Source: Dacryopinax spathularia
Taxonomy: Eukaryota; Basidiomycota; Dacrymycetes; Dacrymycetales; Dacrymycetaceae
DNA length: 64,000 nucleotides
Direction: 5' to 3'
Assembly: GCA_037974965.1 (NCBI GenBank)
Contig: JBBPFI010000018.1
Coordinates: 496,001-560,000, forward strand
A program made the position numbers and the translations under genes. This document shows positions 4,146 through 46,879 of the stretch, one piece after another (the stretch's first letter is position 1; every line of letters begins with the position of its first letter). The notes below the pieces were generated by a model. That model was not told the DNA's origin and searched no databases. It saw nothing but the letters and a program-made list of their open reading frames with translations.

Positions 4146-6494
4146 TCATTCCCTGCCGACCCTCGGCTCCCACGCGTTCCTCGGCAACAGCGGGTTACAC
4201 GAGTTCCACCCCTCTTCTCCCGGTCCATGCGCCGCAGCAGTCGCGCTCGTACTGGCGCTAGAGCTGGCCATGCCGCTCAGCGGTACGAGCCTGTTCTCGG
4301 TTTCCGGTGCCTTGCCCTTCCCTTCCACCGTGCTCGTCTCCGCGTGCCCGTCCACACCGGTTGGAGGCAGCCCCTCCCCTGGTGCGCCAACAGCGGCAGA
4401 AGTAGACTCCCGAGCCCCCATCGCAGCAGCAGCAGCAAGCATCTCCCTCTCCCTCCTATGTCTCTCCCTCTCCTCCCTCTCTCTTCCCTGTCTCTCCTCC
4501 TCTTCCCCTACGCGGCGTAGATGACTCGGTAAGCCTACCCGGCCAGAACCTTCAGCCACTGGCCTCCGATGGGCAGAAGGGGACGGACCGTGTGGCAGGT
4601 TGAGGGAGGGCAAGGAGGGGAGGATCGTGGGTCCGTAAGGAGGGGAACGGAGTGGCGCGGGCGGGTCGGTGGGGAGTCGGATGTGCGGGGAGGTGGAGAG
4701 GAGTTGGAAGAAGTGAGGGAGGCGGTGGGTGAGCTTCTGGGCGGTCTGCGCGGGGGCGGGGGCGGGGGCGTGGGTTGGACGGCTGAAGCTGCTGCTCCTG
4801 CGGCCGGGGCCCATGAAGCGCGCGACACCGTAGCTGGAGGGCCCGGCAGAGTAGCTTGACGGGCCTGCAGAGGGACCTGCCGAGTAGCTCGAAGATGGTC
4901 CAGCGGAATAACCCGAGGGTCCCGCCGAATATCCTGAGGGTCCCGCAGAAGGCCCGGCCGAGTATCCAGATGGTCCAGCGGACGGACCAGAGGAAGGACC
5001 AGCAGACATCGAGTACCGCACATCCTGACCATTACTCCTCGCCTTCCCAGCACCAGGCTCATACGCCCGCCTATCAAGGTCGGGCGACGCCAACGAGCTC
5101 GTAAACGGCAGCGTCGGCGGAGGCAGCGGGGCTGCAGGCTGTTTCCCCACGCTTTTGGCCGCAGTGATCCCACTCGCCGACCCAGCCGAAACGGCCGAAA
5201 CAGGCGTAACAGCAGACGTCGGCAGCGTACTGGCCGACCAAGGCCCAGCGGACGAGCTGGACGTAGCGGAGAAAGGGACTGCAGATCGGGGGCCTTGAGG
5301 CGGCGAGTCCGTAGCCACAGCAGCGAGGATATCGAGTGGCGAACTGCCTTTGTTGATCTGCGCAGGTCCATCTACGAGAGAGGAAGAAGAATGGGCACTT
5401 CGTTCGCTTGCGTGCGGGGAGCCTCCTGCTCCTCCTCCTCCTCCTCCGGCGGCGGCGGCGGCTACGAGGAGCCCGGGAGGATGGGAGGATGGTGAGGGTG
5501 GTTTGGTTGTGAGCGTGCTCGTGGTGGTGTAGAGAGATTGGGGATGTGAGGCGGGGGAGAAGGGGTGGAGGTGAGATGCAGGTGGTCCTTGTTGGTACTG
5601 GGTTGCTATATGCGGTGCGGGAGGGTGAGGATATGCGTTCCCCGGTTCGTATTGCGGATAGTGGGAGTGACTGCTGGCCGAAGGAGGCGTATAGTAAGAA
5701 TTCGAGCTGGAGCTCTTGTTGCTGTATATCGAGAGATGCGCCGGCTGCTCGTTCTCGTACGCCTGCCCCCCAGGCGTATGCGAATGCGAATACGACTCGA
5801 CCTGCATCTGCATCCCCTCGTCCTGCAACAGCTCGTCCTCCTCTTCCTGCGCCAACTCCCTCGTCCTCATCCGCTCCCCGCCAGCAGCAGCACCAGGCAC
5901 CGACAGCCCCCTCACCCCACCTACTTTCCTTACCCCTCTACAGCCCGGACAGGCCTTGACGTACCGGCCTACGACTTCTTTCGGCACGCCAGCCCATTCT
6001 TTTTGCACTTCTCTGACTGTCCGGTCCCGCCCTACGTGCCCCACGCGCGCATGGGCCTCGGTGACGATCCTCCAGATGCTTTCTGCCGGTGCGAGCGGCA
6101 GGGAGCTGGCATGATGGCACACTCTCAGTTCGCCCCCCGGACCAGGGACGAGCGTGAACTGCCGCCGGGCCCAGAACCGGGTTTGTGCATCGGATATACT
6201 GGTGCTTTGGGGCGAGGCGAGGATGTTGTGGATCAGGTTGAGGAAGGAACGGGAAAGGAGGGCCTTGGCGCGTTTTGACGGGTGGAGGGAGGTGAGGTAG
6301 GCCGTGAGGAGGTCGGTGAGTGCCGCGGGGGTGGGGAAGGATGAGAGAGGCTGTTGGGAGAGAGGAGGAGGGGTGGGGTCTTGGGGGTATGTGAGGGAGA
6401 CGAGCGGTGAGGAGGAGGAGGAGGACGGGGAGGAGGGACCTGGGGGTGAGGGGAGAGGGTAGGGGGAGTAGCGGGTTGGGGTGGGGTGGGACAT
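4146..6494 (-). CDS. H2C2 (integrase/Spt10-type) zinc-finger protein with long low-complexity tail
   Basis: A single long open frame of 782 residues counted from the ATG at 6494. The frame stays open upstream of that ATG, but no ATG occurs there, so 6494 was chosen. An ordered N-terminal part (residues about 56-190) ends in a His2-Cys2 finger: H148-x4-H153 ... C182-x2-C185. This fold is shared by retroelement integrases and by host DNA-binding proteins such as yeast Spt10. No integrase catalytic core or other retroelement part is present, so I read it as a host gene using a domesticated domain, probably a nuclear regulator. The remainder is rich in Ser, Pro, His, Gly and Ala. A tandem array of SAGPS / SGY units lies around DNA 4850-5020, followed by an Arg/Glu-rich segment near 4440-4530. 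Codon-level GC is high and the antisense strand therefore shows many spurious open frames. Confidence 0.72.
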   Translation of the reverse strand: MSHPTPTRYSPYPLPSPPGPSSPSSSSSSPLVSLTYPQDPTPPPLSQQPLSSFPTPAALTDLLTAYLTSLHPSKRAKALLSRSFLNLIHNILASPQSTSISDAQTRFWARRQFTLVPGPGGELRVCHHASSLPLAPAESIWRIVTEAHARVGHVGRDRTVREVQKEWAGVPKEVVGRYVKACPGCRGVRKVGGVRGLSVPGAAAGGERMRTRELAQEEEDELLQDEGMQMQVESYSHSHTPGGQAYENEQPAHLSIYSNKSSSSNSYYTPPSASSHSHYPQYEPGNAYPHPPAPHIATQYQQGPPASHLHPFSPASHPQSLYTTTSTLTTKPPSPSSHPPGLLVAAAAAGGGGGGAGGSPHASERSAHSSSSLVDGPAQINKGSSPLDILAAVATDSPPQGPRSAVPFSATSSSSAGPWSASTLPTSAVTPVSAVSAGSASGITAAKSVGKQPAAPLPPPTLPFTSSLASPDLDRRAYEPGAGKARSNGQDVRYSMSAGPSSGPSAGPSGYSAGPSAGPSGYSAGPSGYSAGPSSSYSAGPSAGPSSYSAGPSSYGVARFMGPGRRSSSFSRPTHAPAPAPAQTAQKLTHRLPHFFQLLSTSPHIRLPTDPPAPLRSPPYGPTILPSLPSLNLPHGPSPSAHRRPVAEGSGRVGLPSHLRRVGEEEERQGREREERERHRREREMLAAAAAMGARESTSAAVGAPGEGLPPTGVDGHAETSTVEGKGKAPETENRLVPLSGMASSSASTSATAAAHGPGEEGWNSCNPLLPRNAWEPRVGRE

Positions 6495-9400
6495 TGGCGT
6501 CTGTCGAGGGGGAGGGGAGGAGGTTTTGATTCGGCCTAAGGGGAGGAGCGTCCTGGTCGTGCGATAGTTCAATGAAGATAGCTCAGATGACGGGTGACCA
6601 GTGTACAGATTCGGCAAGCACGACGGTCAGCAGTGGGCGCCGTAGCTCACTGGTCAGCCGAAAGGACGGAGAGGAGGCTCGAGACGGCGAGCAGAGGAGG
6701 AGGGGGACGAGGGAGTAAGGGAGTAAGGGAGTAAGGAGGGAGAGGGAGGGAGGGAGACAGGGCGTTGTCCACGGAGGGCGCCAGCCTGGGAACGGAGGGG
6801 GATGGCTTCGGACACAGAGGGACGGGGAGTGTGGGAGGAATAATATGATAGGATTGGTCAATGTCTGATGGGAATAGTCTCATTTCCAACTCGCCCACTC
6901 TCCCCCCTTCCTCCTCCTTCCATTCCCTTCCCGCGGGCTCCCCATCTCCCATCTCCACCCACGATACGCACAGCTAAGCAACCGAAGAAGAAGCACATGA
7001 TACCCAATCAATAATTCTCATCAGCCGAACCAGCCCGAAAGGGAATATTAAACGGGCGAAGGGGGCGCTCGAAGGGAGGGGGGCGTCTTCTTTCCGCTCC
7101 GGCTCGATCTTCACTGCTGTCTTCCCATGAACAGGCTCGTGATTTTCGATTTCGGCCAACACCCGTCCGAGGCCGGCCCGCAGCAGCAGCCAGCATCAGC
7201 GATATGATAATCTTACATGTTGGACCCGAAACGGCTCCCTTGCTCACTCCGCATCCGCCCATCCGCCCCCCACACGATGTACAAGAATGGGAATGGCCGT
7301 CTTGGGCCGGTCGGTGCGTCGTAGGTTGTTCGCTTCCCTTCCCGACTGCGGAAAGGGATTTGGCGTCAGACGGCCCACGAATGGGCGGATGGAATGGAAG
7401 GGTTCAGATTCAGATTTCAGAATCAGAATCATCGGTGCCAGGGGCGGGAAACAGCCTGCTTCCGGCGGCAGCGTCACCATTAACTTATTGGGCGGCGGCA
7501 GGGGTCCACCGGAGCGGAGGCGGATTTGATCTCGGGCTGATGGGTTGACATGTATGACGGACGGGACGGGGACGACATGCGCCGCGTGACACATCCCACA
7601 CCTCACACCTCACACCGAGCGGTTGGAGCAAGGGGGCGTAAGTACTGTACTGTAAATGAACACGGAGGCCGATCTGGACGACCTGGACTTGGCTTCTCTG
7701 CTTTTTGGCTTCTTCTCTTCTGGCGCCGACGTGTTTGAGGTATGTACACAACTTGCAGACGGTCGTCCTCCGGTCCAAGTACTATATGATGCGGATGACG
7801 CGGTCACTCGGCGGCGAAAAGCACGGCTTACATCAAGAGCACATAGACCGAGCGCGATAATGTTTCATGTCCGAGCTCACACGACCCCCACCGGTATTTC
7901 ATTCCGCGCGTCAAACATAAGCATCCCAACCACCGCCACCACCACCGCCACCGCTAATAATCTCGCCCAAGCCGCAACACAACGCAACCTGTTCTAAGCG
8001 AGTGTGCATGTGCGAGTTCGAAACCCAACTGACACTTTCAATTTCATCCAATAGCGCCTTTGCTCGCTTCTCGCACCGAGGCCAAGCCATCTCCAACTGC
8101 GCATCCACAACGATACCCTGTACCGCGGCATGACCCCCCGCCCGCCCGGGAGCCCCAACATACTTACTGAGAAGAAGGAGCGGTGGAAGTCCCTGTCTCG
8201 CATCAATTACGACCCTGGAACAGCGGGACGTCATACCCCTCCCCTCATCCCACACTCTCCCTTCCCACACTCTCCCTTCCCACCCACACAATCCACACCT
8301 ACACAAGCCTACCACAAACCGGTCTCATCAGCCGGCCGTTGCTTCAGTAATGATAGTTCCTTCTTAGCAACCCGCCCACAATGGATCCTGATCCTGATCC
8401 TGGTCCACAATTGCCCACCAAGGAGTGTATTCTGGTTCAGGTTACCGGTACCCTTAAGCTTCTACACGCCGATGGAGGGGTGTGAGGGAGATAGGCTTAC
8501 ATCTCTCTATCTTCTTTTTATCGGCACTTCCGTATCGATATCGGGCACGTTCGGTAGGTCGGGAGGAGCGGCAGACGGCTGTTGCTAGTGTGATGCGATA
8601 TGATATGTTGATCAGGACATGATCTTAATCAGCCGGCTTGCTCGGTTCACGCCCACATCCACGTCCACATCCCTATGTCTCGCTCCGAATCGATATGATA
8701 TGACATAAACCCCACCTTCGCCAGTAGTGTCACCGCCTTCGCTCCGAATAACCAACGAGCGAAGGAAGGGTCGGAAGCCGAAGCCGAATCTGATAACTCG
8801 CCATCCTGGCGAGGCGAATGTATAGCCAGGGTAGCGGGGTAGGGAACAAGCTTGCGCTAGCGGGACGACCAGCCACGTCCATAAGAAACACTCTAAGAAA
8901 CATGGGAGAGGATTGGAATCCAGTCCGAGCGGGTTCTAGCTCGTTCAAGCTCGGACCGTACGACTGATGGCTTGGCGGTCTGACGAAGATAGTAGTGGGC
9001 GGTAGGTTATTCGCTTCATGCCCTTGAGAGGGAAGGGAAGAGGGGGAGGGGGAGGGGATGTGAGCTTGGCGGCTGGGAGTGTGTGGATGATATGACGAGG
9101 AAGGCTGGTTGTAGCATATAGTCAATTGAGGGAGATCCGGATCCTGGTATGTATTGACGATGTCCTGGGCGCTTGCGTTCCGAAGTGGACTGGGTGTTTG
9201 CCCGGCCGACCACTTGCAGAGGACACGCTTCGGAGAAAGGTGTCGAATTCGAATCCTATGTCATCGACACCGTACAGGCAAGGGTAGTCAGTATCCCTAA
9301 GTCGGCAGGACAAGTTGGGGATTGCCGCTGCACCATTCGCATCGTTCTCCGTACCCCGCCAGTTCTCTGATGCCGCGCACCGGTACATGCTACGAGCGAG

Positions 9401-34808: not shown

Positions 34809-35245
34809 GGTGGAATAGAGGGGTTTTCGATATTTCTTGCGTAATTTATGTGTTTTTGTTGGCGGTTGATGTAAAGCATGAGGTCTTAATAAAGAGGTGC
34901 ATTGTGCGGAGACTACTCAAGGAGCGCACCGTAGCGACTACGTATGTTCGGCTTGCAATCAGACCAGATCGACGCAAGAACCCGGTTTTCTAAGCAGCCG
35001 TTTGATGCGGCATCAGGCGGCCTGGCAGCTCCTCGCAAAATAACGGCCAGGCGATGATGCGATGGACGACTCTTGTCGGTGTACGGCCGTAATGAGCCAG
35101 GGTCGACGCTCTATAATCCTGGCCTTCTCGCGTGAGTGCCATGACCAACCCTGAGTAGTTGAAGGCAGGAGATGAAGGCAAGTAACCAAGATATCAGGCG
35201 TCTGTGCCACTTACGGATAGTCAGATATGCTAAATTTTGCACCCA
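34809..35245. other. 3' flank of permease 2
   Basis: No gene is recognised. The stretch carries the permease 3' UTR and leads into the repeat island. Confidence 0.4.
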
Positions 35246-35370
35246 AAGTAATGCCGCCCCGCTAGTGTAGCGGTAACAGCGGCAGAGGGCTACTATATCG
35301 TGAGCCTGGGGTTACTATATCGTGAACCCTTTTGGTTTCGAGTCTGGCAGGCGGCAAATTGGCTTTTTAA
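35246..35370 (+). repeat. tRNA-headed repeat, solitary copy A
   Basis: Starts AAGTAATGCCGCCCCGCTAG. Its head has a box-A-like segment (TAGTGTAGCGGTAACAGC) and, about 70 bp on, a box-B-like segment (GGTTTCGAGTCTGG). Between them stand two tandem hairpins, 35287-35307 and 35309-35329. GCCGCC at 35253-35258 can pair with GGCGGC at 35350-35355 like a tRNA acceptor stem, but a proper T stem is missing, so it is tRNA-like rather than a tRNA. No inverted partner of the same subtype lies next to it. Confidence 0.75.
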
Positions 35371-35584
35371 CCCCTTTATGCGGCTTGGGTAGAACGGGGC
35401 TCTCGCCTCTGTGTCAACGCTGAGGAGATGACTTGGTGGTAGTTTTCGAGTGAGACATTCGTGGCATCACTACGTGTATTGCGTTGTCCGGCCAACTATA
35501 CACAACGAGCACACCAACGATAAGTCCAAAGTACAAATGAAGGTGGAGAGGAGCTTGAAGGGGATGTATAGCTCAGAATTGGAA
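35371..35584. other. Spacer between repeat copies A and B
   Basis: No gene or clear repeat is seen; it may include the tail of copy A, which cannot be delimited from this single sequence. Confidence 0.3.
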
Positions 35585-35592
35585 TGCAAAAC

Positions 35593-36246
35593 AATGCCGC
35601 CCCGCTAGTGTAGCGGTAACAGCGGCAGAGGGTTACTATATCGTGAACCCAGGGTGGCTATATCGCGCACCCCTTTTGGTTTCGAGCCTGACAGTCGACT
35701 AAACTTTTTTTTAATCCACTTTCTCGTTGCTGGGCGCTCGGAGGCGCGCTTGGGACGGACGAAGGGCGGCCGAAGGGTGAGTGGGAAGACGTTGGAAGAT
35801 GCGGAATCAATGTCTGAGCGTAAGTCCGCCCCGACATACACAATGTGAACGAAGCCAATGCGAATAAATATATCTTACAGAGTCTTCTTCCATAGTTGAT
35901 GAGAACTGCTTGGAAAAGAGCTAAGTGAGGGGGTTTACACTTGTAACCCCTTGACCCCCTTGCTGCAGAAGGAGAAAGAGAATGATGAGGAACGGAGAAT
36001 GTCATCCCGGCTCCGATGCTGAGACATAGCCTCCGAGAGTCTTCCAACGTCTTCCCGCTCACCTCGTGGCCTCCCTTCGTCCGTCCGAAGCGCGTCTCCG
36101 GCGCCCAGCAAACGAGAAAGAGGATTAAAAAGCTAATTAGTGGACTGTCAGGCTCGAAACCAAAAGGGGTGCGCGATATAGCCACCCTGGGTTCCCGATA
36201 TAGTAACCCTCTGCCGCTGTTACCGCTACACTAGCGGGGCGGCATT
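35593..36246. mobile_element. Foldback element with tRNA-headed inverted ends (copies B and C)
   Basis: A 654-bp unit whose two ends are inverted copies of about 200-230 bp, both beginning AATGCCGCCCCGCTAGTGTA at the outer edge. Each end carries the tRNA-like head, two tandem hairpins and a downstream part containing GACGGACGAAGG and GGGAAGACGTTGGAAGA. The 8-bp word TGCAAAAC lies directly outside the left end (35585-35592) and again just outside the right end (36250-36257) after a 3-bp GCG, which suggests a target-site duplication. The interior (about 35830-36020) has no coding potential I recognise. It is non-autonomous. It could be a MITE-like foldback element with captured tRNA promoters or a pair of head-to-head SINE-like units. 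Confidence 0.78.
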
Positions 36247-36451
36247 GCGTGCAAAACTAAACATGAGATACTAGTCCTTCTTGTACCACACGAATTCATA
36301 GAACTCAATTGAGCTGCAAATGTGAGGCAACTCTTTGTGCGCGATGGATATCTTCCATAATAAAAATGTATATATATGTGAAAAAGGTCGCCCATACTAA
36401 CAATACATCGGTGCGGAAAGGCGACACACGCATTCGTTATAGGGTAAACAT
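36247..36451. other. Right flank of the repeat island
   Basis: Short AT-rich stretch (ATGTATATATATGTG near 36365) between the foldback element and the stop codon of the first F-box-like gene; nothing else is seen. Confidence 0.35.
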
Positions 36452-42882: not shown

Positions 42883-44604
42883 ATGGCGGACAACTTCATC
42901 GGGTGAGTCTTTGCCATTCACCCGCGCATACATGCCATTCTAACACCATCTCTTCAGAGCGCGCATCTCGCTCACCTCAATGCGAGGTGTGCGCTACCGT
43001 GGCACTCTGCATTCCTTCTCCAAGGAGGACAGCACCATCTCCCTCTCCGACGTGCTCAGCATGGGCACGGAGAACCGCCGTCCACAAAACGAGTACATCG
43101 CGCCCTCCGAACGCGCATATCCGTTCATCGTCTTCCGCGTGAGCGACGTGGCAGACGTGAGCGTCGAGCAGCCTGCTCCGCCACAGGCACCACAGATGCC
43201 TGAAGACCCGGCCATCGTTGCTGCTGTGAGTACTCTTTCTAGTTGATTCTGGACGAGGCTGCGGGCACCCGAATGATGAAACATTCACGGATGTTAAACA
43301 CATAATACCGTCCGACGATGCGCAAAACCCCATGTGGATATTTCCGTTGCCTTCCTTCTGACTCTTTCGTGCCGGCATCCTCGCCTTTTTATCCTCTTTG
43401 TGAGCGATACTGACTCACATACCTATGACAGCACCAGCCTCCTCCTCAGAATGGACCGCCACAGGGGTACTACCCTCCTCCTCCCGGTCAGCGGCCTATG
43501 GCTCCTCCTGGGCCGCCTGGGCAACAGGGGTATTACCCTCCTGGACCTCCTGGACCGGGCGGTATGATGCCGCCTGGCCCACCTGGGCAGCAAGGTTTCG
43601 CTCCTGGGCCTCCTCCGCCGGGTTCTCGTCCTCTACCTCAGGCTCCTGGTCAAGCACCACCAGCGCCTGCCGCAACGCAGCCAGCAGCGGCGCCTCCCGC
43701 TCCGGCCCCCGTGGCTCCGCCTACTCAACCTGCACCAGCGACTTCTGCTCCTCAGCAGGCTTCGCAGAACAATACCACCGTGGAAGCGCCGAAGCCGCGT
43801 CAAGCTCAACCCAAGGGTGCACGCGTGCCCTCCCGTACTGGCGCAGAGAGCGCCTCCGTCCGAGCTGCCAGTGCATCGCTCGAGAACGTCGAGAAAGCTC
43901 TGGACGACCTCCGTCTCTCCCGCGAGACCGAAGCTCGTGCACCTGCCGCCCGTCCACCAAGGAACGGCACAACGAACGGCGCTGGTCTCCCTCCCCGTCC
44001 GTCAAATGGCACCGCTGCGGTAGATGGTGACTCCCGCCCTCCTCGCCACAACAGGCGACGGCCACGTCCACCACATGGTGCGCCTGGCACCTTCGCCCAA
44101 CCCCGTGCGCCCCTCCCAGGCACAGATTTCGACTTCAGCGGCGCTACTCAAAAGCTCGACAAAGCTGCCCTCTTCGCTGACGTCGCCGACTCCGCTTCGG
44201 AAAGCGAATCCGAATCGGACTCGGAGCCCGAGGAGCACGCAGACAAGGACGGCAAGATCCCCAAGGCCAAATCACCAGTATACGACAAATCCAAATCATT
44301 CTTCGACCATCTGTCCGAAGCGCCCGCTGCACCCGCACCGTCCGCTCCCTCCCAAACCGGCGGGCGTGGTGGGCGCGGAGGAGGAGGCCCCGGCGCAGGC
44401 GGAAGGGGAAGGGAAAGAAGACAACAAGAACGGAGCTTGAACCTTACCACTTTTGGGGAGGCGAGTGTAGGCCGGTATGGGGATGGGGTGCAGACGGGTG
44501 TTGGGGGCGGGTATGGATATAGGGGCAGGGGCAGGGGAAGAGGAAGGGGGAGGGGGAGGGGAGGCCCGCCGAGGGAGAGCAGGGAGCCGCAGTTGGCGGC
44601 ATGA
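42883..44604 (+). CDS. SCD6: Scd6/LSM14/RAP55 mRNP protein
   Basis: Three exons, 42883-42902, 42958-43225 and 43432-44604, giving about 486 residues; the second intron is long for this window (206 bp). The N-terminal LSm14 domain is MADNFIGARISLTSMRGVRY and onward to YPFIVFRVSDV. A Pro/Gly/Gln-rich linker follows. The three hallmark C-terminal modules are then present in order: FDF (TDFDFSGATQKLDKAALF), FFD box (YDKSKSFFDHLS) and TFG box (LNLTTFGEASVGRYGDG). The tail is an RGG-type run ([17 protein letters not shown]). Members of the family repress translation and promote decapping by binding eIF4G and the Dhh1/Dcp2 machinery in P-bodies. All modules are intact. The exon-3 acceptor at 43431 is set by the frame of the Pro-rich segment. 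Confidence 0.94.
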
Positions 44605-45056
44605 GTGACTTCTCGACGATCGAGGGCCCCACCTTCGGGTGTATGGTTTTATATGGTTTTAGTGGGATGTGCGACAACTCTACTCCGTTATGTTCGTATA
44701 TCTGCCCGCGAGCGGAGGAGATACCGGGAGGTTGTGATGTTGATGTCTGACGTGGTGAGGGTTAGGCCGTGTGAGGTGTATGTAGCGTGAATCGAAATTG
44801 AATGTTGACAAGGTTGATCCCTGAATATACGTCTGTGTCAGCCTTGGTTCGATATGCATTTCAGAACGATCTTCTGTATTTTTGCGTGTCAGGGCACCTG
44901 TATAGGCCATTCCAGTGTTCCTGCAGTCAGGACTCAGCACGACGGCAGTTCACCGTAAAGAAGCATCACAACGACTGGTCACTCGAGCGCATAGAGGACA
45001 GCAACGATGCCATTTGGGGCGCACAGCGCGTATGTATAGGCTAGTTTCCGCACACG
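44605..45056. other. 3' flank of SCD6
   Basis: About 450 bp, no gene. A tandem ATATGGTTTT pair occurs near 44650-44665. The stretch leads into the second repeat island. Confidence 0.4.
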
Positions 45057-45697
45057 AAGTAATGCCGCCCCGCTAGCCTAGCGGTAACAGCGGCAGAGGG
45101 CTACTATATCGTGAGCCTGGGGTTACTATATCGTGAACCCTTTTGTTCGATTCCGGCAGGCAGCTAGTCTTTTTCAAATCTCTTTTGCTCGTGCAGGGGC
45201 CGCCGGAATTGCGCTTCGGGTCGTTCGGGTGGTTCATAAGGGGAGCGGGAAGATGTTGGAAGACTCTCGGAGGCTATGTCTCAGGGTTGGAGCCGACCGC
45301 CGAGCTCACCAAGTCTCTCTTTCCTACGGAACTTTACCAAATTAATTACGCATTTCGGGTTATGCTCGCACCATGGTCTAATTCCTCTACAAGTGTCCAA
45401 AAGCTGCTTAATTTAGTAAAAGTCAGGGGTGCAGTGGACTGGAAGCCTGAGTGACGAGAGGATGTCGGGGTAAGACATTGATTCCGCATCTTCCAACATC
45501 TTCCCGCTCCCCTCGTGGCCTCCCTTCGTCCATCCGAAGCGCAACTCCGGTGGCCCGCGCGCGAGTAAGAAGGGATGAAAAAAGAATTAGGTGCCTGCCG
45601 GACTCGAACAAAAGGGTTCACGATATAGTAACCCCAGGCTCACGATATAGTAGCCCTCTGCCGCTGTTACCGCTAGGCTAGCGGGGCGGCATTACTT
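45057..45697. mobile_element. Foldback element with tRNA-headed inverted ends (copies D and E)
   Basis: A 641-bp unit with inverted ends, each beginning AAGTAATGCCGCCCCGCTAG. It is the second member of the family at 35593-36246. The box-A-like segment reads TAGCCTAGCGGTAACAGC and the box-B-like segment TGTTCGATTCCGG, closer to the Pol III consensus than in copies A-C. Each end has the same two tandem hairpins. A subterminal part contains GGGAAGATGTTGGAAGA in both arms. I found no convincing target duplication around this copy. The interior (about 45310-45470) is non-coding. Confidence 0.78.
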
Positions 45698-46496
45698 TCC
45701 AACCAACTTTTAGCATATACATAGCCACTCAGAAGACTATCCCACTGCTCGTATACTGGAGTTGCTCATTCTTGGGTCCCACAGAACCATATATTCGAAC
45801 TTGGTATCCACTACCGTATACCACCAGCATAAACCCTTTCGAGCCTGGTCCGGCCAGTGTTATTCCATCGCATGAGCGGCGAGCGGGTATCATTAGTGAG
45901 AGACAAAGCTCGAAGCGCGCTCAGCATGTCGACCGCTGGGGCTATAACAAACTAGGACGTGTCTGTCCTTGGGGCATATGGGGGGCTGTGTGCTCGTGAC
46001 CCTTCTTAAGTTACTCCGAGTCGTCATCGAGAACTGGATTGAGTCCTTTGATGAGAAGGGGAGAGTACAAAAGAGGAAACCGGTATCAGCATACAGAAGT
46101 CTGGATATGTTCATTATGGGCGTCACCGCTCACGTCGGATGACGACCAAAGAGACGACGAGGAAGCCGGTGTGGATACGCAATTGCGGTTCGGCCAAGCA
46201 ACAGGAATGGAGTGCCAGACAAGACAGGGGGTCGTACCCATATAGAGTACATTCGATCTCATGTCCCCGGTATGTGCTTTCGGCCAAGTACAACTTCGCC
46301 CTGAGTTTGGGCGGTGATGAGCGGTGTAATCACATATGGCGGGCATAGTTAGTGGCATCCGACGTTGACAAGATCGAAACGTTTGGCGGACCTGCTCGTC
46401 AGAGTGTGTTGGACATGCATCGGCCGCTTTGAGGTTGTGACATGTGGCGCAGGCGGATGATGTTGTACTACATATGGTGTACTTCGACTCGGTGAG
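45698..46496. other. Intergenic region between repeat copies
   Basis: About 800 bp without a recognisable gene; short open frames on both strands have no domain. Confidence 0.35.
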
Positions 46497-46640
46497 GTAA
46501 TGTTGCCCCGCTCGCGAAGCGGTAACAAGCGGCAGAGGATTACTAGTACATGTAGATTGAGTCCTGAACCCGGGGTGGCTTAGGGTATATGAGAACCCCT
46601 TTGCCACACGTCGCCAGCTCGATTCCCATGGTAATCAACA
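46497..46640 (+). repeat. tRNA-headed repeat, divergent copy F
   Basis: Begins GTAATGTTGCCCCGCT and keeps the box-A-like CGAAGCGGTAACAAGCGGCAG and box-B-like CTCGATTCCC. The hairpin region is enlarged and degraded (CCGGGGTGGCTTAGGG ... GAGAACCCC). This is an old, diverged relative of copies A-E, about 800 bp from copy E. Confidence 0.6.
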
Positions 46641-46879
46641 AGTCAGATGATGTTTCGACAATGAACCGGGAATGCTCTCCGGGAAGGGGAGATGAAGAGA
46701 GGAAAGGGGAGAGAGGATGAGAGGAGTCGTCCGTTAGAAAACTCGGAGGTAAGGCGCACTCCCCGGGAGCCGAGCGCTCTTTTTATGTAAGCACAATTTC
46801 TTTGCGTTGTCGGTCCCTGACGTCCCTGGGCGCCCATCGCTCCCCTCACACTCTCTCCTCCTCAGTGCCGCCCCTCACA
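46641..46879 (+). promoter_or_regulatory. Promoter and leader of RRP3
   Basis: The sequence turns CT-rich at 46830-46870 (CTCACACTCTCTCCTCCTC). The repeat copy F lies directly upstream, so part of the promoter may be repeat-derived. Confidence 0.4.

Follow-up and report, generated by a model that had tools for sequence, protein, structure and literature searches.

MITEs and foldback elements are short inverted-repeat elements without coding capacity that lie at dispersed sites. The two inverted elements described below, E1 and E2, are likewise short, dispersed inverted repeats that lack coding capacity. AfuSINE2-type tRNA-related fungal SINEs of Aspergillus fumigatus, as presented in the main text of PMC5063351, have in common with the repeat studied here that they are short and dispersed, have an internal box A and box B, keep no cloverleaf and carry an oligo-T run; the words 'inverted' and 'hairpin' each occur 0 times in that main text. 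In tRNA genes of S. pombe and S. octosporus, TATA lies between -20 and -35 upstream (excerpts of PMC4600332), and the combination of an upstream TATA-like block with internal A and B boxes is shared by fission yeast Pol III genes and the present repeat. Among the matches listed from the open-access literature, none described inverted pairs of Pol III units that carry tandem hairpins, which is no proof of novelty.

We analyzed a 64-kb stretch of DNA (the window), for which an earlier note had described two repeat heads with two tandem hairpins each. Both heads are real, and we found that the repeat has six heads in the window. With +1 set at the first base of AATGCC or AATGTT, they begin at 35250 (U1, + strand), 35593 (U2, +), 36246 (U3, -), 45061 (U4, +), 45693 (U5, -) and 46499 (U6, +, a decayed copy). 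A covariance model built from these heads gave six matches of at least 57.5 bits in the window, the next best scoring 15.5 bits, and this model revealed no seventh copy in the 64 kb. We consider the heads to represent a family of short Pol III-type units that are dispersed and contain a duplicated hairpin, with a probability of about 0.55. The family is best read as SINE-like and partly packaged as inverted pairs.

The five intact copies (U1 to U5) each look like a complete Pol III gene, with a TATA-like block at about -26, box A, the hairpins, box B and an oligo-T run, and measure 140-146 bp from the TATA-like block to the T run. U1 is a solo unit on the forward strand (35225-35368). It has ATAT at 35225-35228, box A at 35263-35273, hairpin A at 35287-35307, hairpin B at 35309-35329, a box B-like block at 35335-35345 (8/10) and T5 at 35364-35368. 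U2 (35567-35712, forward strand) is the left arm head of E1 and carries TATA at 35567-35570, box A at 35606-35616, hairpin B at 35630-35650, hairpin C at 35652-35672, a poor box B at 35679-35689 (7/10) and T8 at 35705-35712. Its inverted counterpart U3, the right arm head of E1 (36127-36271, reverse strand), carries GTAT at 36271-36268, box A at 36233-36223, an altered hairpin B at 36209-36189, hairpin C at 36187-36167, another poor box B at 36160-36150 (7/10) and T5 at 36131-36127.

The other inverted element is E2. Its left arm head U4 (45035-45174, forward strand) consists of TATA at 45035-45038, box A at 45074-45084, hairpin A at 45098-45118, hairpin B at 45120-45140, box B at 45144-45154 (9/10, with the core GTTCGANTCC exact) and T5 at 45170-45174. 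In the inverted right arm head U5 (45578-45719, reverse strand), these are TATA at 45719-45716, box A at 45680-45670, hairpin A at 45656-45636, hairpin B at 45634-45614, box B at 45610-45600 (9/10, the same core exact) and T6 at 45583-45578. The decayed copy U6 (46499-46626, forward strand) has a box B-like block at 46616-46626 (8/10), lacks the box A consensus and shows no T run of at least 4 within its first 160 nt.

Across the heads, a consensus box A lies at +14 in 5/6 (U1 to U5). The box B-like block at +84 to +87 scores 9/10 in U4 and U5, 8/10 in U1 and 7/10 in U2 and U3; over all six heads the tally is 9/10 in two, 8/10 in two and 7/10 in two. An oligo-T run of five to eight is found at +110 to +116 in 5/6 heads. 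T4 also stands directly after the second hairpin in U1 to U5, so a shorter RNA of ~85 nt may be possible.

All scoring of promoter features was done after the heads had been seen, and in this scoring the ordered set of box A, box B of at least 8/10 and T5 occurred three times in the 64-kb window, always in heads (U1, U4, U5), and never in 20 dinucleotide shuffles. The ordered-set test fails to pick up U2, U3 and U6, which we count against the Pol III reading, together with the box B of only 7/10 in E1. The core GTTCGANTCC alone is not rare, with two occurrences against 0.75 expected and two in 19/100 shuffles. Furthermore, the best-conserved gapless upstream block of the six heads lies at -25 to -18 (35/48; random-set mean 26.8, 0/2000 as good), although this conservation may stem from copy homology alone, which the random-set control leaves in. 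At -27 to -25, we found TATA in U2, U4 and U5 and ATAT or GTAT in U1, U3 and U6. The tRNA-Arg gene that ARAGORN identifies in the window has, by eye, no TATA near -26.

The earlier note had called the repeats tRNA-headed. It placed the hairpins at the position of a tRNA anticodon region, and they do sit between box A and box B, at the position of a tRNA anticodon/variable region, flanked by tRNA-type Pol III promoter motifs. The cloverleaf, in contrast, is not maintained, since a 3' partner of the 5' GCCGCC was seen (by eye) only in U1. Neither Rfam nor ARAGORN with default settings called a tRNA at any of the six heads, and only relaxed ARAGORN settings gave assorted tRNA calls there. The Rfam result is a weak negative because the whole-window gathering search also missed the tRNA-Arg. 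On the missing default calls and the cloverleaf partner confined to U1, a true tRNA was rejected. A tRNA-related SINE starts with a type-2 Pol III promoter (box A plus box B), has a tRNA-unrelated body transcribed as far as a 3' tail, carries target-site duplications and is retroposed by a partner LINE. Both boxes are present here. T5-T8 precedes the body, and since this T run stands straight after the head, the predicted transcript would end before the body, unlike that of a classical SINE. U1 has no body in common with U2 to U5.

We also considered a twister (type P1) self-cleaving ribozyme, of the kind carried by retrozyme-like elements, as the origin of the 5' part of the head, which would then be its relic or a variant of it. 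Twister-P1 was the top Rfam match in 171-base searches of U1 (17.1 bits, E 0.29, 35245-35293) and U4 (19.9 bits, E 0.043, 45056-45104), and in the U1 alignment as printed, the agreement covers UAA, the first stem and GAGGG. These scores are far under the Rfam gathering score of 67.2, on which basis the ribozyme was rejected as an assignment, and the middle of the model is absent from the printed U1 alignment. In a 671-base search, U4 and U5 gave no match at E up to 10, and a separate search of U2 gave none either. U2 and U3 carry CAA instead of UAA, and a UAA at the predicted transcription start would leave P1 unable to form in a Pol III RNA. A twister relic is therefore very improbable.

The four 21-nt hairpins of U1 and U2 are located exactly where they had been described, and the 6-nt loop TATATC, the bulged G and the described stem sequences were found in all four. 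The second hairpin of U1 equals the first hairpin of U2 letter for letter over 21 nt, so there are three variants, not four independent hairpins. In the whole window only three exact 21-nt sequences occur: A (U1, U4, U5), B (U1, U2, U4, U5) and C (U2, U3). Their order is A-B in U1, U4 and U5, B-C in U2, and altered B followed by C in U3, whose first hairpin is B with one uncompensated A-G that breaks one pair. Folded alone, the three distinct sequences reached -6.1, -5.5 and -9.8 kcal/mol, and 11/200, 12/200 and 2/200 shuffles, respectively, folded as well.

Variants A and B differ at three sites, comprising one compensatory pair and one G-C/G-U change, while B and C differ at four sites, comprising two compensatory pairs. 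All differences among A, B and C are in stems, with 0 loop changes and 0 broken pairs. When 3 + 4 random substitutions were placed on B, in a simulation devised after the variants had been seen, 2/400,000 runs did as well (frequency 5e-6). Aligning the six heads over 26 pairs gave 150/156 cells that pair (96.2%), compared with 92.7% in shuffles (0/500 as high as 96.2%) and 34.8-41.0% with slid partners. The covariation score of the six heads was equalled by 2/500 shuffles, and the number of pairs with a two-sided change, three, by 89/500. A formal covariation test on these heads is low-powered, because only two or three events are available. Of the six unpaired cells, one is in U3 and five are in U6.

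Thus, the stem compensation among A, B and C is unlikely by chance, yet it amounts to only two or three events. This is what stands of the paired stem changes reported in the earlier note, which are compensated beyond chance and rest on three variants. Further copies, named there as the place to look for uncompensated stem changes, do in part contain them, since U3 has its A-G and U6 has 5/26 pairs broken. U6 also has insertions in both hairpin loops and retains two 5' stem pairs as U-G. Its second hairpin shows the left-arm changes of type C and lacks their right-arm partners, which suggests a possible intermediate of stepwise change, although U6 is decayed.

A question separate from the identity of the unit is whether the stem changes reflect selection on RNA structure. 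Hairpin-templated repair (template switching) may instead have produced them, as may the reshuffling of an older A-B-C array, and we regard this as a serious possibility, although at somewhat less than even odds. Template switching is a documented non-selective route that creates and maintains hairpins with multiple compensatory changes (excerpts of PMC8794818). Variant B is identical at position 2 of U1, U4 and U5 and at position 1 of U2, as slippage predicts, and the intact copies show only two hairpin orders. The different positions of B point to either a B-B ancestor or slippage in an A-B-C array. Mildly against templated repair, all three variants have kept the bulged G, which repair of a whole stem would be expected to erase; the unpartnered left-arm changes in U6 also suggest stepwise change rather than repair, with the reservation made above for this copy. 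An array origin would still not account for the paired differences that separate A, B and C.

The predicted folds depend on the length of the piece, and the longer ones leave the reading of the earlier note only partly supported. In 81-nt pieces, U1, U2, U4 and U5 fold into a 5' two-tier hairpin followed by both hairpins, and U3 does so with its variant first hairpin; 6, 3, 3, 17 and 17 of 200 shuffles folded as well for U1 to U5, respectively. The U6 fold (104 nt) did not form both hairpins and was not exceptional (118/200 shuffles as good). In 128-144-nt pieces, the minimum-energy fold retains both hairpins only in U2 (1/6), and the other five heads are rearranged against downstream sequence. 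On these predictions, the twin-hairpin fold is the favoured one if the RNA is short and ends near T4; for an RNA extending to T5-T8 it is less certain.

Under the Pol III reading, box A (+14) and box B (+84 to +87) would be the TFIIIC binding sites, and TFIIIB would sit on the TATA-like block. Pol III would then produce an RNA of ~110-120 nt, or ~85 nt if it stopped at the T4 after hairpin 2. This RNA would form a two-tier 5' hairpin overlapping box A, followed by two tandem hairpins with a 22-nt period. The twin hairpins would have arisen by duplication of one hairpin between the boxes, from a B-B ancestor or from an A-B-C array minus one end, and after duplication the stems would have diverged with pairing retained.

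E1 is the inverted pair U2/U3 (35567-36271), 654 bp from +1 to +1 and 705 bp including the TATA-like blocks. Its inverted repeats extend over ~209 alignment columns from +1, with 183/207 identical. E2 is the inverted pair U4/U5 (45035-45719), 633 bp from +1 to +1, with inverted repeats identical at 175/203. We found that E2 has the side-specific junctions of E1 in the opposite orientation. In the 22 columns just past the repeat, comparison of E1 with E2 gave 5 same-side sites and 0 concerted sites. E1 and E2 thus likely descend from one parental pair, since same-side arms share private sequence past the repeat.

Inside the repeat, the pattern is different: 24 sites are concerted within elements, 0 are same-side, 2 cross, 31 single and 11 mixed. 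The head alone has 14 concerted, 0 same-side and 2 single sites, and the body includes 2 cross, 29 single and 11 mixed sites. The heads of one element differ at 1/97 and 1/94 positions, compared with 23/110 and 27/109 in the adjacent bodies (p 3e-6 and 2e-7). Body identity between U3 and U5 (87/110) equals the likeness of the two E1 arms. Because of this equality and the mixed body sites, homogenization is clear only in the head. The near-identical heads are most simply explained by conversion between arms, by selection focused on the head, or by both.

Of 15 possible pairs of copies, 8 were compared in their outer flanks (-283 to -33), and none showed likeness beyond shuffles (8 to 100/100 as high), so the copies are dispersed repeats at unrelated sites; segmental duplication of a larger block was dropped because the flanks are unrelated. 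Likewise, from +125 onward U1 resembles U2 to U5 no more than shuffles do (13 to 48/100 as high). The likeness of U1 to these copies stops just past its T run, and thus the smallest repeated unit coincides with the predicted transcription unit.

Within its head (35250-35345), U1 is mosaic-like, with an E1-like 5' hairpin loop and box B region and E2-like hairpins A-B, which suggests exchange among copies. The region after U6 (46624-46844) has some likeness to the bodies of U3 (0/100 shuffles as high) and U4 (2/100) and none beyond shuffles to U2 (38/100 as high). This likeness may be compositional, since the sequence is purine-rich.

The inverted elements raise the alternative of a non-autonomous DNA transposon (MITE/foldback) with ~210-bp terminal inverted repeats, in which the hairpins would be palindromic transposase-binding sites at the DNA level and the likeness to box A and box B incidental. 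E1 and E2, as inverted-repeat elements at unrelated sites, would suit such a transposon, and so would two palindromes 22 bp apart, a spacing fit for side-by-side protein binding. A further point in its favour is that the first ~37 bp is the most conserved part of the head. The 8-bp direct repeat TGCAAAAC adjoins both E1 heads (35585-35592 and 36250-36257) and could be a target-site duplication. The U3-side copy also resembles the upstream spacer of U1, and TGCAAAAC was dropped as proof of transposition.

E2, whose ends are uncertain, shows no target-site duplication, and the exact ends of the elements are undefined. The TATA-like block lies outside all six heads, so TGCAAAAC would fall inside the element. 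U1 lacks a partner arm, and the end of its likeness just past the T run fits a transcription unit rather than a terminal inverted repeat. The absence of the ordered box A, box B and T5 set from all 20 shuffles argues against an incidental likeness. Taken together, we consider the transposon unlikely.

Our preferred reading remains the dispersed family of Pol III-type units, in which each of two ~0.65-kb inverted-repeat elements, copied to sites without homology, would have a unit at either end, the two facing each other. Within an element, conversion between arms, selection on the head, or both would keep the heads almost identical. A further proposal is that the heads encode a family of structured RNA not described before, which Pol III would transcribe at either end of a mobile inverted-repeat element, and that they are kept identical because the RNA with its tandem hairpins is needed for spread of the element or for a host function; we regard this as distinctly unlikely.

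Relatives of the repeat were also sought elsewhere. Exact or degenerate patterns of the repeat had 0 matches in viral contigs and 0 in GTDB genome contigs, collections without fungi, and blastn found 0 matches in plasmids and phages, which is uninformative on fungi. Matches of a 19-mer in three viral contigs were taken as chance, since the likeness is confined to the 19 letters. As separate observations in the window, Rfam matched an snR52/Z13 C/D-box snoRNA at 43264-43372 (77.1 bits), in an apparent intron upstream of an FDF-domain ORF (43498-44604). On the strength of this match, a short intron-like stretch and the gene content, the DNA was presumed to be fungal. At 4146-6617 on the reverse strand, an S- and P-rich ORF of 823 aa has a weak match to the zinc-binding domain Integrase_H2C2 (22.1 bits; curated cut-off 25.5).

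If transcribed, the repeat would be a natural tRNA-type Pol III unit whose anticodon region is replaced by a duplicated hairpin, its fold kept as the sequence drifts, and the ends of the inverted repeats would be complete Pol III genes. The family would then lend itself to experiments on how Pol III promoters give rise to repeat families, and on telling RNA-structure selection apart from templated hairpin repair.

Among known systems, MITE/TIR transposons have terminal inverted repeats with defined ends and a target-site duplication of fixed length; E1 and E2 have long inverted repeats, and their ends and duplications are inconsistent. Unlike MITEs and foldback elements, their ends carry Pol III-type units, and the possible target-site duplication is 8 bp in E1 and absent in E2. 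In contrast to the fission yeast tRNA genes (excerpts of PMC4600332), the predicted transcript is not a recognizable tRNA, and the unit is repeated, partly in inverted elements. The present repeat departs from AfuSINE2, as described in the main text of PMC5063351, in that its T run follows the head at once, its boxes enclose two tandem 22-nt hairpins, it has a TATA-like block at about -26, and two inverted pairs have shared bodies.
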